A stretch of 64,000 bases of DNA from Marinobacter nanhaiticus D15-8W. Its GTDB lineage: Bacteria; Pseudomonadota; Gammaproteobacteria; Pseudomonadales; Oleiphilaceae. The notes beneath the pieces were generated by a model. The model did not search any database, was not told where the DNA came from, and worked only from the letters and a program-made list of their open reading frames with translations. The translations under genes and the position numbers were made by a program. This document shows positions 11,411 to 56,694 of the stretch, one piece after another. Each line of letters opens with the position of its first letter. Positions within the stretch are counted from its first letter, which is position 1. The DNA is taken from positions 4,278,001 through 4,342,000 of the forward strand of contig NZ_AP028878.1 in assembly GCF_036511935.1 (NCBI RefSeq). The letters are read 5' to 3'.

Positions 11411-11926
11411 ATGACAGTACGCAAGATTGTGGTGATGGGCGTCTCCGGCAGCGGCAAGAGTCTGGTTGGCGAGCGTCTGGGCGACCTGCTCGACGTGCAG
11501 TTCTTCGACGCCGACGACTATCACAGCGAATCCAACGTGCAGAAAATGGCCAACGGCATACCGCTGACCGACGAGGATCGGCGCGACTGGCTGACGGACC
11601 TGGCGGACCTGATCCGCCGGGAAGCCGGCCTGGTACTCGCCTGCTCCGCGTTGAAGAAAACCTACCGGGACCAACTGCGGACCGGCGATCCGTCGCTGAA
11701 GTTCCTCTACCTCAAGGGGGACTTCGAGACCATCTGGTCACGACACGCCCAGCGGCAGGACCACTACTTCACCGGGCAGGATATGTTGGAGAGCCAGTTC
11801 CTTTCCCTAGAAGAACCGGACGCAAACGAGGCTTACATCATCGATATCTCGGCAACGCCCGAAGCGGTTTTGAAGCAATGTATTGCGGCGCTGAGCATTA
11901 AGCCGCAAGACGATCTGGATCAGTAG
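11411..11926 (+). CDS. gntK: Gluconokinase
   Basis: A 171-aa cytoplasmic kinase converting gluconate and ATP to 6-phosphogluconate, feeding the Entner-Doudoroff and pentose phosphate routes. Walker A is GVSGSGKS (residues 9-16). The family signature 'FFDADDYHSESNVQKMANG' follows, then 'PLTDEDRRDWL' and 'CSALKKTYRDQLR'. Length and motifs match the GntK/IdnK family. It is the last gene of the TRAP operon and identifies the transported substrate as gluconate. Confidence 0.95.
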   Translation: MTVRKIVVMGVSGSGKSLVGERLGDLLDVQFFDADDYHSESNVQKMANGIPLTDEDRRDWLTDLADLIRREAGLVLACSALKKTYRDQLRTGDPSLKFLYLKGDFETIWSRHAQRQDHYFTGQDMLESQFLSLEEPDANEAYIIDISATPEAVLKQCIAALSIKPQDDLDQ

Positions 11927-11955
11927 TCTTAACGAGGCCAGCACTCAGTCAGACG

Positions 11956-12064
11956 GAAGCGTATGGATACCATCGCTGGAGGAGGGGCATGGACGCCCCG
12001 GTCGTCATGGCTCGCCAGGGAAGGCGATCCATGAGCAGCGGAAGCGATGGTATCCATCCGCTTC
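11956..12064 (+). repeat. Three-stem palindromic element, copy 1 (3' of gntK)
   Basis: Two 22-nt arms (11956-11977 and 12043-12064) pair with one mismatch around a 65-nt interior. The interior forms two smaller hairpins: GGGGC/GCCCC and CGCC/GGCG, the latter extended by TCATGG/CCATGA. A second copy lies at 54234-54341 in the other orientation. The two interiors are about 80% identical, and differences in the stems are mostly compensatory. The element starts 29 nt after the gntK stop, in the sense direction. Confidence 0.75.
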
Positions 12065-12179
12065 AGACTCGAGAAAAACAGACTAGCGACGAAGCAGGAG
12101 TCACAAGAGGTCACTTTCACCCCATAAGCCATGGCTTACCATAGGCAGCGCTGTAAACGTAAGGAATCTAATTACAACA

Positions 12180-13178
12180 ATGCCAAAAAAACGCAGACCC
12201 ACACTACAGGACATCGCCGACCAGGTCGGTGCCACCAAGATGACTGTTAGCCGCTGCCTGCGCGGTGGCGACAACGTATCGGAGAAGATGCGCAAACGCA
12301 TTTTCGCGGTGGCAGAAGAACTGGGCTACATCCCCAACCGGGCACCGGATATCCTGTCCAAGGCCACCAGCCGCGCCATCGGCATCCTGCTGCCCTCACT
12401 GACCAACCAGGTCTTTGCGGATGTCATCAAGGGCGTCGAAACGGTAACCGAACCCGCCGGCTATCACCTGATGCTCACCCACTATGGCTACAGCCCCGAA
12501 GTGGAGGAACGCAGCCTCGCTTCCCTGCTCTCCTACAACGTGGATGGCGTAATCCTTTCGGATAGCCAGCACACGCCGCGCACCCTGCGCATGCTTGAAA
12601 CGGCGGGCATTCCGACCGTAGAACTGATGGACACCCATCTACCGCCCTTCCAGCAGGCGGTCGGCTTCAACAACGTCAAGGCCGCCTACGACATGGTGAG
12701 CGAGATGATTCGCCGCGGTCGCAAGCACGTGGTCTATCTCGCCGTGCGACTGGATGCCCGGACCCTGCAGCGCCAGGAAGGCTATACCCGGGCCATGGAA
12801 GAAAACGGACTTAAACCGGTCACCCTTCGCAGCGAGCAGCGTTCGTCATTTTCGGTCGGCGCCACGTTAATGACCCAGATCCTCGAACAGAATCCGCACA
12901 CCGATGGCATCTTCTGTACCAACGACGATGTCGCGATCGGGGCCTACTTCGAGTGCCAGCGGCGGGGCCTGGCGGTACCGCAGGATATGGCCATCGTCGG
13001 TTTCCACGGCCACGATGTGGGCCAGGCCATGACACCCCGGCTGGCCAGCGTGATTACTCCCCGCGAAGCCCTCGGCAAGCGAGCCGCAGAGGAGCTCTTG
13101 GCCCGTCTAGACGGCAGGCCTGTCACAGACAAAGTGATCGACCTGGGGTACCAGATCGAGGCTGGAGGTACGCTCTGA
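12180..13178 (+). CDS. gntR: LacI-family transcriptional regulator, GntR-like (gluconate)
   Basis: A 332-aa repressor. The LacI HTH is at residues 7-30 ('LQDIADQVGATKMTVSRCLRG') and the hinge near 45-60. The periplasmic-binding-like sensor domain includes 'AIGILLPSLTNQVFADVIKGVE' and ends with 'DLGYQIEAGGTL', as in E. coli GntR. It lies at the end of the TRAP-gluconokinase cluster. It most likely binds the 20-bp palindrome at 8358-8377 and releases it in the presence of gluconate or 6-phosphogluconate (inference). No similar operator is seen before its own gene. Confidence 0.88.
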   Translation: MPKKRRPTLQDIADQVGATKMTVSRCLRGGDNVSEKMRKRIFAVAEELGYIPNRAPDILSKATSRAIGILLPSLTNQVFADVIKGVETVTEPAGYHLMLTHYGYSPEVEERSLASLLSYNVDGVILSDSQHTPRTLRMLETAGIPTVELMDTHLPPFQQAVGFNNVKAAYDMVSEMIRRGRKHVVYLAVRLDARTLQRQEGYTRAMEENGLKPVTLRSEQRSSFSVGATLMTQILEQNPHTDGIFCTNDDVAIGAYFECQRRGLAVPQDMAIVGFHGHDVGQAMTPRLASVITPREALGKRAAEELLARLDGRPVTDKVIDLGYQIEAGGTL

Positions 13179-54044: not shown

Positions 54045-54377
54045 CCCTCCTTTGGTTGTTCTTGTTCAAGGGCGATCCCTGAATACCACTGGGAGACACA
54101 GGATGCAGGAGTGCACGTCGTCAGAAACGGCAGGCTCCTGATCAAAAATTAGACGTGACAATCTGTCAGATCAACGCAGATAGGTAGACCGTTTTGACCT
54201 AACGGAAGGTGGGCATATCCTCTTGGCGGGACTGAAGGGGAGGGATGACTGCGCCTACGCTGTCCTGGATGGCCGTCCCTGGCCAGCCATGACGCCCGGG
54301 ACATCCCTGTCCCTCCTTCGGCGCAGTCATCCCTCCCCTTCGTTCATAGCTTTGAACAGCCTTCCCTCAACCTACAG
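54045..54377. other. Intergenic region holding repeat element copy 2
   Basis: No gene is supported in these 333 nt. They include the esterase leader (54045-54180), with no clear promoter consensus that I trust, and the three-stem repeat at 54234-54341. The HAD gene ends at 54378. Confidence 0.5.
54234..54341 (-). repeat. Three-stem palindromic element, copy 2 (3' of the tandem-HAD gene)
   Basis: Arms 54234-54255 and 54320-54341 are 22 nt and perfectly complementary; the interior is 64 nt. Read on the minus strand, the interior aligns with copy 1 (11978-12042) at about 52 of 65 positions. Inner stems are GGGAC/GTCCC and GGCC/GGCC, where copy 1 has GGGGC/GCCCC and CGCC/GGCG, so both copies pair despite base changes. 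It starts 37 nt after the HAD stop, in its sense direction. Confidence 0.75.
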
Positions 54378-56057
54378 TTACGGCGGACCGACTTCACAAG
54401 CCAGGACGAGCGCCCAGAACTCCGAGAAATCATTCACCACGACATCCGGTTTGTGTGGATGACGATGGGTGCCGGGAAAGATGTTCTGCAGCCAGGGCAG
54501 ATCCCACAAGGCGCCGTTGAAGAAGACACCGGTCATGCCGGCGCGTTTGGCGGCGATGATGTCGGTGGTGCTGTCGCCTACATACCAGACGCTGGGTCCG
54601 ACCGGGTAGTTGAGGTTCTCAGCGGCGAAAATGAGCTGATCGGGATGGGGTTTGCGCAGGGGCGTGTCGTCGCCGCAGACCTCGGTATCGAACAGGTGCT
54701 GCCAACCGGTGCCTTCCACCGCCGCCAGTTCGTGCTCGAAGAACTCGCGGTCTCGGTTGGTGATGACGCCGACCTGGATGCCAAGCCGGCGCAAACCATC
54801 CAGCATCTGGCTCACCCGCGGCTCGAACGCCGAGACGTTGCCATAGTGGTTGCGGTAGTGACGATTGAACGCCTGGTGGGCGATAGCCTTGGCGTCCTGG
54901 TCGTCACCAAACAGCACCTCGAAGATATCGGTGCGAGAAATCTTGCGATCCGCCCTCACCTTCGGGTGTAGTTGGGAGAATTGCCTGACGTAGTCCACCA
55001 ACTTGGCATCTTCCGGCGTCTTGCTGTCTTCAGGCTCGAGCATACGCTCCATCAGGCCCAGCTCGCGGAATTCCGGCAGCATGTCGTCCACGGCGTGGTA
55101 CATGGCATCGAGGGTGTCCACCAGCGTTGCATGCCAGTCGAACAGGATGACTTCCGGGCGGATGAGTTTGGCCAATGCGGGGTGCCAGTCGGCTTCCTGC
55201 CGCGGCTCGGGCGGTGCCGGTGCGGGAAAGGCCTGCGGGCGAACTTCATCGACGGGGCGTTGGAAGGTCCCTTCCGGGAAGGCCGCCAGCTCGTCCATGA
55301 GTTGCTCGAAGCTCTCGATAATCAGCGCCGGCCGGTCCTGCTTGCGGAACCAGCCCTGGATACGCTGCGGTTCCCAGTGGGCGCCGTTGTAGAAGATCGG
55401 GGTCACGCCCGCGTTGTTGGCCGTGACCATATCGGTGTAGCCGTCCCCCACGTACCAGATGTCCGCTCCCGGCTTTAGGCCCACCTTTTCCGCACCACTG
55501 ACCAACACTTCCGGGTCAGGCTTGTAGTGGGTAACGTCGTCAGCGCAGACGGTGGCATCGAACAGCTCGCGCCAGCGTCCGTCTTCCAGGGTTTTCAGCT
55601 CGGTGTCGAGGAACTCGCGGTTGCGGTTGGTGGCGACCACCAGCTTGATCCCGAGATCGCGGCAGGCACGCAGGTAGTCATAGACACCTTCCTGGAAGGG
55701 TTTCACGCGGCCGAAATACTTGCGGTAGCACTGATTGTAGGCGTGGTGGGCGATGGACTTCGCTTCTCGGTTATCGCCGAATATAGCGTTGAAGATATCG
55801 GTGCGCGACACCCGACGCTCTGCCAGGATGCGCGGATGCAGTCGCCGGAAGATGCGGATGTAACGCACCAGGCGGGCGTCATCGGCATTGTTGCAGGCCT
55901 CCTCGGGCAGCAAGTGTTCGACCAGCCCGAGTTCTTCCAGTTGTGGCAGCATCTCCTCCATGGCACTGAACATCGCGTCATGGGTATCTACCAGGGTTCC
56001 ATGCCAGTCGAAGAGCATGGCGGCGGGTACAGCCAGTCGGTCATCACGGGTCCGCAA
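54378..56057 (-). CDS. Tandem HAD-like hydrolase with two DWHxT-type domains
   Basis: A 559-aa protein formed by two homologous HAD domains joined by a Pro-rich linker near residues 275-290. TTG 56057 is chosen because AAAGGAGG lies seven bases upstream; the first domain begins directly after it. Motif I reads 'FDWHGTLVDT' (Asp17, His19) and 'FDWHATLVDT' (Asp307, His309). The usual second catalytic Asp is His in both. Motifs 'TNRNRE/TNRDRE', 'KPDP/KPHP' and 'VGDGYTD/VGDSTTD' are otherwise intact. Substrate is unknown; resemblance is to phosphoglycolate phosphatase-like HADs. Confidence 0.85.
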   Translation of the reverse strand: MRTRDDRLAVPAAMLFDWHGTLVDTHDAMFSAMEEMLPQLEELGLVEHLLPEEACNNADDARLVRYIRIFRRLHPRILAERRVSRTDIFNAIFGDNREAKSIAHHAYNQCYRKYFGRVKPFQEGVYDYLRACRDLGIKLVVATNRNREFLDTELKTLEDGRWRELFDATVCADDVTHYKPDPEVLVSGAEKVGLKPGADIWYVGDGYTDMVTANNAGVTPIFYNGAHWEPQRIQGWFRKQDRPALIIESFEQLMDELAAFPEGTFQRPVDEVRPQAFPAPAPPEPRQEADWHPALAKLIRPEVILFDWHATLVDTLDAMYHAVDDMLPEFRELGLMERMLEPEDSKTPEDAKLVDYVRQFSQLHPKVRADRKISRTDIFEVLFGDDQDAKAIAHQAFNRHYRNHYGNVSAFEPRVSQMLDGLRRLGIQVGVITNRDREFFEHELAAVEGTGWQHLFDTEVCGDDTPLRKPHPDQLIFAAENLNYPVGPSVWYVGDSTTDIIAAKRAGMTGVFFNGALWDLPWLQNIFPGTHRHPHKPDVVVNDFSEFWALVLACEVGPP

Positions 56058-56127
56058 TGGCGAGCCTCCTTTACCGTTTAAGCTGAAAGGTTTGTGTTGA
56101 ATCAGGTTACCGAAAACGTCGTCCGTT

Positions 56128-56694
56128 TCACTGCGGCTTACCTGCCGATTCCACCTCGGTGATACGGCCGTCACGGAAAGTGACGATACGGCGGAACTGG
56201 TTGCTGCCGAACTCGTACATCCATTCCTCTACCGGGTAGATACCCTGCAGCACACCCCGACGTTCGGCGTATCGGGAATATTCATCGGGCACTACCCAGG
56301 TAATACGCTTCGACAGTGGTTCTCCACAGCGTTTAATCACCTCGAACTCACTCATGCCGTCGTTGAGCACTCGTGGATTGCAGTTACCCGCGGCTCCGGG
56401 GAGGAAGCCATAGCCGAGGCTGTCCTGGCTTTGGAGACGCCCATTGCGGAACACCAGGCGGCGAATGAAACTGCTGGGGCCAGGGTTGTAATACCAGTGC
56501 TCGACTGTTTGCACGATACCGATACCCGGCAAGGCCGCTTCCGGATAGATGGCGACATAGTCGGGCTCGCCACAGCGCTCCTTCACCTCTACCGGCCAGT
56601 CGCCAACATCCACCAGCCCGGTACCACAGCGAAAGGCGGCCTGAGCGGCGGACGGCAATAACAGTAATACCGCCAGCAACGCGAGTACACGCAT
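56128..56694 (-). CDS. DUF2845 family periplasmic protein
   Basis: A 188-aa exported protein. ATG 56694 starts a signal peptide ending at 'SAAQA|AFRCG'. Two similar units follow: 'RCGTGLVDVGDWPVEVKERC' and 'CNPRVLNDGMSEFEVIKRC', each ending in CGEP, typical of DUF2845. The paired cysteines suggest disulfides. Function is unknown. It lies 70 nt upstream of the tandem-HAD gene in the same direction. Confidence 0.83.
   Translation of the reverse strand: MRVLALLAVLLLLPSAAQAAFRCGTGLVDVGDWPVEVKERCGEPDYVAIYPEAALPGIGIVQTVEHWYYNPGPSSFIRRLVFRNGRLQSQDSLGYGFLPGAAGNCNPRVLNDGMSEFEVIKRCGEPLSKRITWVVPDEYSRYAERRGVLQGIYPVEEWMYEFGSNQFRRIVTFRDGRITEVESAGKPQ

Follow-up and report, generated by a model that had tools for sequence, protein, structure and literature searches.

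The site consensus of CsrA/RsmA is CANGGANG, and CsrB, CsrC, RsmX, RsmY and RsmZ each come from a single gene under its own promoter, often driven by GacA, and have many GGA sites. REP elements are short palindromes dispersed at gene 3′ ends. CsrA sites are described as hairpins with GGA in the loop, generally in pairs, in a 2014 study that also proposed, as a hypothesis to be validated, that the TwoAYGGAY motif binds CsrA (PMC4333381). TwoAYGGAY had appeared in 2010 as a motif of no assigned function in human gut, gamma-Proteobacteria and Clostridiales; Weinberg 2010 rated it as probably an RNA and probably not cis-regulatory (PMC2864571). RsmW of Pseudomonas aeruginosa binds RsmA in vitro, carries GGA in stem loops and appears to be processed from the 3′-UTR of an upstream gene (PMC4950607). 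In the open-licence literature, we found no experimental test of TwoAYGGAY binding to CsrA and no paper on dispersed CsrA-binding repeats.

The window, the whole 64,000-nt stretch of the Marinobacter nanhaiticus D15-8W genome analysed here, contains two copies of a three-way-junction element (Table 1) whose nearest Rfam families are TwoAYGGAY (RF01731) and RsmW (RF02809), members of the shared clan CL00106. In each copy, a 22-bp outer stem closes a junction with two hairpins. With 10 nt of flanking sequence at either end included in the folding, none of 200 shuffles folded as well on any of the four strands (z: copy 1, −6.4 and −7.2; copy 2, −8.3 and −6.7). Both elements were thus confirmed at the positions and with the folds given in an earlier note on this DNA, except that the conserved unit proved longer than the arm-to-arm span described there, with weak conservation extending past the arms from about −22 to +9. 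The cores were 80% identical (52/65), as that note had estimated, and the compensatory stem changes it had read, GGGGC/GCCCC versus GGGAC/GTCCC and CGCC/GGCG versus GGCC/GGCC, were correct; its “about eight” co-changing arm positions amounted to 7 of the 22 pairs changed on both sides, one further pair having changed on one side only, at a mismatch.

Copy 1 starts 29 nt past a stop codon, in the sense direction and at the distance previously claimed; the gene ending there, which we take to be gntK after the earlier note, had matches at E ≤ 1e-20 in five of six related genomes, and the downstream gene presumably encodes a LacI-type regulator, a name judged from its own sequence. Copy 2 starts 36 nt past the stop of its upstream gene, on the same strand. 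The sequence after copy 1 lacks a T-run, which excludes an ordinary intrinsic terminator at this copy. Apart from these two copies, the window contained no pair of neighbouring C-A(N)GGAN-G hairpins (closing stem ≥4 bp, hairpins ≤60 nt apart), and the average chance expectation was 0.07 such pairs in 30 simulations with a first-order Markov model of the window. In an Rfam scan of the window, no family reached its gathering score.

Table 1 Window copies of the element, their parts and adjacent genes. Positions refer to the window unless a genome position is given.
Feature	Position	Strand	Basis or remark
Copy 1, whole three-way-junction element (outer stem and two hairpins)	11956..12064	+	fold; CM R1
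Copy 1, genome position	G000:C1:4289956-4290064		CM R1 score 116.4 bits
Copy 1, outer stem 5′ arm, 22 nt	11956..11977	+	
Copy 1, outer stem 3′ arm, 22 nt	12043..12064	+	
Copy 1, hairpin 1	11984..11999	+	GGGGC-ATGGAC-GCCCC; loop ANGGAY 11989-11994
Copy 1, hairpin 2	12006..12033	+	CATGGCTCGCC-AGGGAA-GGCGATCCATG; loop ANGGAN 12017-12022
Copy 1 with weakly conserved flanks (about −22 to +9)	11934..12073	+	column conservation, 99 copies
Copy 2, whole element	54234..54341	−	fold; CM 128.3 bits
Copy 2, hairpin 1	54298..54313	−	GGGAC-AGGGAT-GTCCC
Copy 2, hairpin 2	54262..54293	−	apex GGCC-AGGGAC-GGCC
gntK-like gluconokinase gene	11411..11926	+	ORF; upstream of copy 1 in sense
LacI-type regulator gene (presumed)	12180..13178	+	ORF; downstream of copy 1 in sense
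Gene upstream of copy 2 in sense	54378..56174	−	ORF

A covariance model built from four copies detected at least 26 matches at E ≤ 1 in the 5.4-Mb genome itself, corresponding to 19 places (both strands were matched at seven), a copy number that is a lower bound because 150 of 3841 candidates were scored. The further genomic copies on which the earlier note had staked its reading therefore exist. At E ≤ 0.01, the model matched 8 of 58 genomes, this one included, with at least 23 matches here, at least 30, 13, 13 and 32 in four of five other genomes of the genus, at least 11 in a genome of a sister genus (G006) and single matches in two further genera. The fifth genome of the genus (G001) gave no match at E ≤ 0.01 with 67 candidates scored per genome, indicating that the element is dispensable. 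G001 constitutes a natural copy-free comparison within the genus. Removal of six imprecise or distant rows (L041, L042, L125, L126, L127 and L124 at 3837) and 13 near-duplicates from 118 copy rows left 99 copies, of which the 90-copy alignment used below leaves out the nine outside 105–111 nt.

The element belongs to the TwoAYGGAY/RsmW class, of which it forms a divergent branch, and the suspicion in the earlier note that the family could already be known was right in the sense that it is a divergent relative of Rfam TwoAYGGAY. A relaxed Rfam scan returned TwoAYGGAY for five of eight loci, one of them above the cut-off, and RF01731 searched against the whole genome gave eight matches at E ≤ 1, all eight on model copies and again one above the cut-off. 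The gathering score of 43 was passed by 1 of the 19 own-genome copies, a sister copy of the window copies (L023/L131, 44.6); the window copies do not pass it, copy 2 scoring 31.5 bits and copy 1 not being listed up to E 5. The element has the two AYGGAY-type loops and the multi-stem structure of TwoAYGGAY, with the second loop position not restricted to Y. A second Rfam scan, of five loci, yielded sub-threshold RsmW matches in three, representing two copies (L043, the same as L257, and L048), at 34.6 (E 0.012) and 27.1 bits against a gathering score of 52, and no match to the CL00106 clan at the two gntK loci L258 and L259.

To the 90 full-length copies, aligned without structure, we applied the predicted fold and found two-sided changes in 37 of the 39 base pairs, compared to an average of 24 in shuffles and 19–24 when the partners were slid, and a covariation score of 0.51 versus 0.18 in shuffles and ≤0.13 when slid, these counts leaning towards the structure and its strand because a + strand structure model had served to find the copies and one of these copies to draw the structure. 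Pairing was possible in 92.5% of cells overall and in 96.6% in the outer stem, where all 22 pairs varied; hairpin 2 kept an internal mismatch, most often C-U (41/90). The orthologous copies past gntK in this genome (L019) and in G003 (L043) differed in three arm pairs, all changed on both sides. Stronger at 90 copies than in the two copies available to the earlier note, the covariation supports its contention that the fold is under selection.

The outer stem also revealed which strand folds. On the GGA-bearing strand, G-U pairs outnumbered A-C mismatches 100 to 29 in 94 of the 99 copies (five under 98 nt were left out), with 46 copies leaning to G-U, 8 to A-C and 40 tied, and the ratio was 55:21 by distinct context; p-values for these counts are guides only, as the copies are related and were found with the + strand model. 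This excess of G-U over A-C indicated that the GGA-bearing strand is the folded one. A palindrome kept as double-stranded DNA should give no G-U bias, which disfavours the protein-binding cruciform entertained in the earlier note, and a bias of the same sign is also expected if a single strand of DNA folds.

Both loops read A-N-GGA-Y, with the A and each letter of GGA present in at least 87 of the 90 copies and N free (hairpin 1: A 87, N, G 89, G 89, A 88, Y 88; hairpin 2: A 89, N, G 88, G 87, A 89, Y 77); loop 2 of copy 1 is AGGGAA. The junction letters were likewise conserved in these copies. The motif CA(N)GGAYG occurred at least twice on the + strand in 71 of the 99 copies and never twice on the − strand, and the 70 copies with two strict motifs and no more had a median GGA-GGA distance of 28 nt. 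Both loops match the CsrA/RsmA site; the GGA sits in the loops of stable hairpins, as in CsrA-sequestering RNAs, and the genome that carries the element also carries one canonical csrA (L130). The CsrA-type loops were absent from the earlier note.

None of the 99 copies was contained in a predicted gene. The 93 copies with both neighbours comprised 38 convergent, 33 sense tandem, 22 antisense tandem and 0 divergent locations, and among gaps of ≥150 nt, 0 of 96 with a copy were divergent, all 96 being convergent or tandem, versus 35 of 69 empty ones (p 7e-17), with genes called by a simple codon-usage caller and empty gaps sampled in the window and around the copies rather than genome-wide. Sense tandem copies started at a median of 47 nt past the stop codon. 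A sense-strand bias of the tandem copies was rejected (33 versus 22, p 0.18), as was a greater integrity of sense copies, since pairing (94.7% in antisense versus 94.6% in sense tandem copies) and the presence of two motifs (14/22 and 24/33, respectively) were alike or nearly so. The Marinobacter element thus belongs to gene 3′ ends without one fixed orientation, a distribution that a trans-acting or mobile element fits better than a strictly cis-acting one. As to the 3′-UTR element suggested in the earlier note, the location in Marinobacter fits, but 22 of the 55 tandem copies are antisense and equally intact. No conserved promoter was detected upstream of the 99 copies, positions −60 to −23 being almost without information, a difficulty for any transcription of the antisense copies.

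Across the genome collection, the double-hairpin pattern was present in 118 stretches, 80 of which were turned into loci; the taxa among the matches listed were Marinobacter, Lachnospiraceae, Desulfobulbaceae, Desulfosporosinus, Treponema, Solimonas, Lysobacter and others. Outside Marinobacter, 14 of 71 pattern matches fell inside genes predicted by the same caller, nine of these in Desulfobulbaceae, and the 33 non-genic matches with both neighbours were divergent (10), antisense tandem (12), convergent (8) or sense tandem (3). A general rule of 3′ location was therefore rejected, as it holds in Marinobacter and fails in other taxa. In Lachnospiraceae, 18 of 26 pattern matches were antisense to every neighbour seen, which suggests that these elements have genes of their own. 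In Desulfocapsa and delta-proteobacterial MAGs (L139, L164, L166, L215), the double-loop pattern appeared as tandem neighbours about a dozen bases apart, and some of the matches lay inside predicted reading frames.

CsrA was found in 33 of the 35 non-Marinobacter genomes with the double-loop pattern, a proportion without matched background, taken from one locus per organism with Marinobacter left out on purpose; the two genomes without CsrA were MAGs. In 346 genomes from the family of a Lachnospiraceae genome, CsrA was present in 51 of 54 with TwoAYGGAY versus 124 of 292 without (Fisher p 7e-14, uncorrected for relatedness). Flagellin (53/54 versus 125/292) predicted TwoAYGGAY as well as CsrA did. 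Since csrA and flagella go together in those genomes, CsrA is inseparable from motility there, and this equally good fit of the flagellin control weakened the co-occurrence as proof. Y1 transposase leaned slightly in the opposite direction (25/54 versus 175/292, p 0.07). Several CsrA copies were more frequent among CsrA carriers with TwoAYGGAY than without (13/51 versus 12/124, p 0.009). Some Lachnospiraceae carriers had many diverged CsrA homologues, with seven csrA-like matches in G060, six in G382 and five in G076.

The position past gntK was occupied by an element of some type in five of six genomes of the genus, own included: the element in sense in this genome and G003, and a different, second type of double-GGA element in sense in G002 and in antisense in G004 and G005; in G001 no element was seen in the stretch inspected. 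The second type (L259:1999-2110 in G002, and around 1380-1460 of L258 in G005 and L260 in G004) is a three-way structure with hairpins GGCCAGGGATGGCC or GGCAGCAGGGATGCTGCC plus TACAGGGATGTA and an outer stem of ~27–30 bp. In the sister genus genome G006, near-identical copies occurred at different places, sharing ~45–60 nt of flank, and two copies (L125 and L126) were, by eye, interrupted inside hairpin 2 by another palindrome. The interrupting palindrome was ~270 nt long, with its own outer stem and inner hairpins. Copies L052, L057, L121, L122, L124 and L125 of G006 lay within larger repeats whose left ends resemble GAACATNNAGAGGGTGTTG; in some copies this end recurs inverted on the right, and some copies adjoined REP-like palindromes. 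At G005:C11:23659/23792, G002:C13:259736/259906, G002:C14:148383/148579 and G005:C80:2837/3017, two copies stood close together in inverted orientation, separated by a few tens of bases.

We found no mobilising enzyme. The six Y1_Tnp genes of this genome are all more than 57 kb away from any model copy, and a link to Y1/RAYT transposases was rejected, as none was near copies and no positive association appeared in the 346 genomes; the arrangement that defines REP/RAYT systems, a Y1 transposase gene flanked by repeats, was not found. With regard to the MITE type, inverted arms were present and were not constant among copies. No fixed terminal sequence was seen, nor, by eye, any target duplication in the copy flanks, where direct-repeat-like motifs on both sides were rejected as duplications because they were not copy-specific. 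A resemblance of some 5′ flanks to integron attC (GCGTTAAC) was dropped, the motif not lying at fixed columns. Thus, dispersed near-identical copies and turnover speak for the small mobile palindrome that the earlier note had offered as another possibility, though a transposase, fixed ends and target duplication were not found.

We place about half of our belief in dispersed, once-mobile CsrA decoys, that is, structured RNAs of the TwoAYGGAY/RsmW class. The + strand RNA would form the 22-bp basal stem and three-way junction and thereby present two A-N-GGA-Y hairpins ~28 nt apart, whose loops a single CsrA dimer could clamp; the basal stem may hold almost any sequence while paired, and this freedom suggests that the stem serves as a scaffold and protects the ends. 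Sense copies would arise as the 3′ tails of host mRNAs and possibly be excised as short stable RNAs, as proposed for RsmW. The family, fold, strand, loop conservation, location and dispersal are the parts of this reading that our data establish. We infer that the copies, having spread in the past as small mobile units, are transcribed and bind CsrA, and that they would jointly titrate it and make the free CsrA level depend on how strongly numerous host genes are expressed. The main problems for the decoy reading are the antisense copies, the lack of a conserved promoter, the different location in other taxa and the fact that CsrA is confounded with flagella. In a bolder version, which we hold only tentatively and think may well be wrong, the element is a mobile RNA whose spread multiplies CsrA decoys. 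Every insertion downstream of a stop codon would tie the transcription of that gene to the free CsrA pool, so that tens of unrelated genes would jointly tune CsrA without a dedicated decoy gene, independently in Marinobacter, Lachnospiraceae, Desulfobulbaceae and others.

It seems unlikely to us that the element is instead a non-autonomous mobile palindrome of the REP or MITE kind, which a host transposase copies in the form of a folded single strand of DNA and which has no RNA function, with hairpin loops as recognition marks of the enzyme and gene ends as the places where insertion is tolerated. Such a palindrome does not predict a CsrA motif in both loops or a restriction to flagellated, CsrA-bearing genomes; Y1 transposases do not track the family (25/54 versus 175/292), the six Y1 genes of this genome are all >57 kb from copies, and neither fixed terminal sequence nor target duplication was seen. 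It would, on the other hand, account for orientation having no visible effect on integrity (24/33 sense, 14/22 antisense), for the avoidance of divergent promoter regions in Marinobacter, for the near-identical dispersed copies and nested insertion in G006, and for the different element types and orientations among species at the gntK locus, and its folded single DNA strand could also yield the strand bias. The location of all 96 occupied gaps, the median of 47 nt past the stop, the 96.6% pairing of the stem despite varying sequence and the recurrence of some element past gntK in five of six genomes of the genus are all consistent with a 3′-end structure, a GC-rich stem that stops 3′ exonucleases or RNA polymerase in either orientation and whose CsrA-like loops are secondary. 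We regard this as distinctly improbable, since a plain stem needs neither two near-invariant GGA loops nor conserved junction letters, and copy 1, having no T-run, is no ordinary intrinsic terminator. The covariation itself might arise with no selection on the fold if template switching between the arms during replication mended one arm from the other; arms that differ wholesale between copies and match within them, and the two-sided change of all three differing L019/L043 arm pairs, would follow. However, template switching acts on both strands alike and predicts no G-U bias, whereas 100:29 and 55:21 were observed, and it leaves the conserved GGA in both unpaired loops unexplained, which makes it very improbable.

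If the decoy reading is true, CsrA activity would be set by a scattered decoy population and not only by a few dedicated RNAs. The Marinobacter branch adds evidence of strand, location, covariation and turnover to the CsrA proposal as formulated in 2014 (PMC4333381), and a genus with carrier and copy-free species makes that proposal directly testable.

By analogy with CsrB, CsrC and RsmX/Y/Z, the GGA hairpins of the element would sequester CsrA; unlike those RNAs, it has two strict sites per copy, many copies and no conserved promoter. With REP/BIME sequences it shares the form of short dispersed palindromes located at gene 3′ ends, some Marinobacter copies standing in close inverted pairs, and it differs from REP/BIME systems with RAYT in its 108-nt three-way junction, its CsrA-like loops and the lack of a Y1 transposase gene close to copies. 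The MITE-derived small RNAs of Coxiella are similar in that, as the title of their report suggests, mobile palindromes bear on small-RNA evolution (PMC5896051), and dissimilar in that terminal repeats and target duplication are not demonstrated in the Marinobacter element. Both window copies sit past a stop codon in sense, which fits the 3′-UTR position of RsmW, although RsmW, as far as its report indicates, is a single locus of P. aeruginosa and not described as dispersed (PMC4950607). The closest likeness is to TwoAYGGAY in the three-stem layout, the two A-N-GGA-Y hairpins, the poorly conserved outer stem and the multi-copy occurrence also in Lachnospiraceae (≤7 candidates scored per genome). 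The Marinobacter element departs from it in being G+C-rich, in its 108 versus 168 model positions and in its continuous 22-bp basal stem. Rfam assigns TwoAYGGAY the type Cis-reg, and the entry for cis-regulation in Weinberg 2010 is “probably not” (PMC2864571). New in comparison to these systems are the high-copy dispersal in Marinobacter, the 3′ location, the hypervariable yet paired basal stem and the turnover at one locus.
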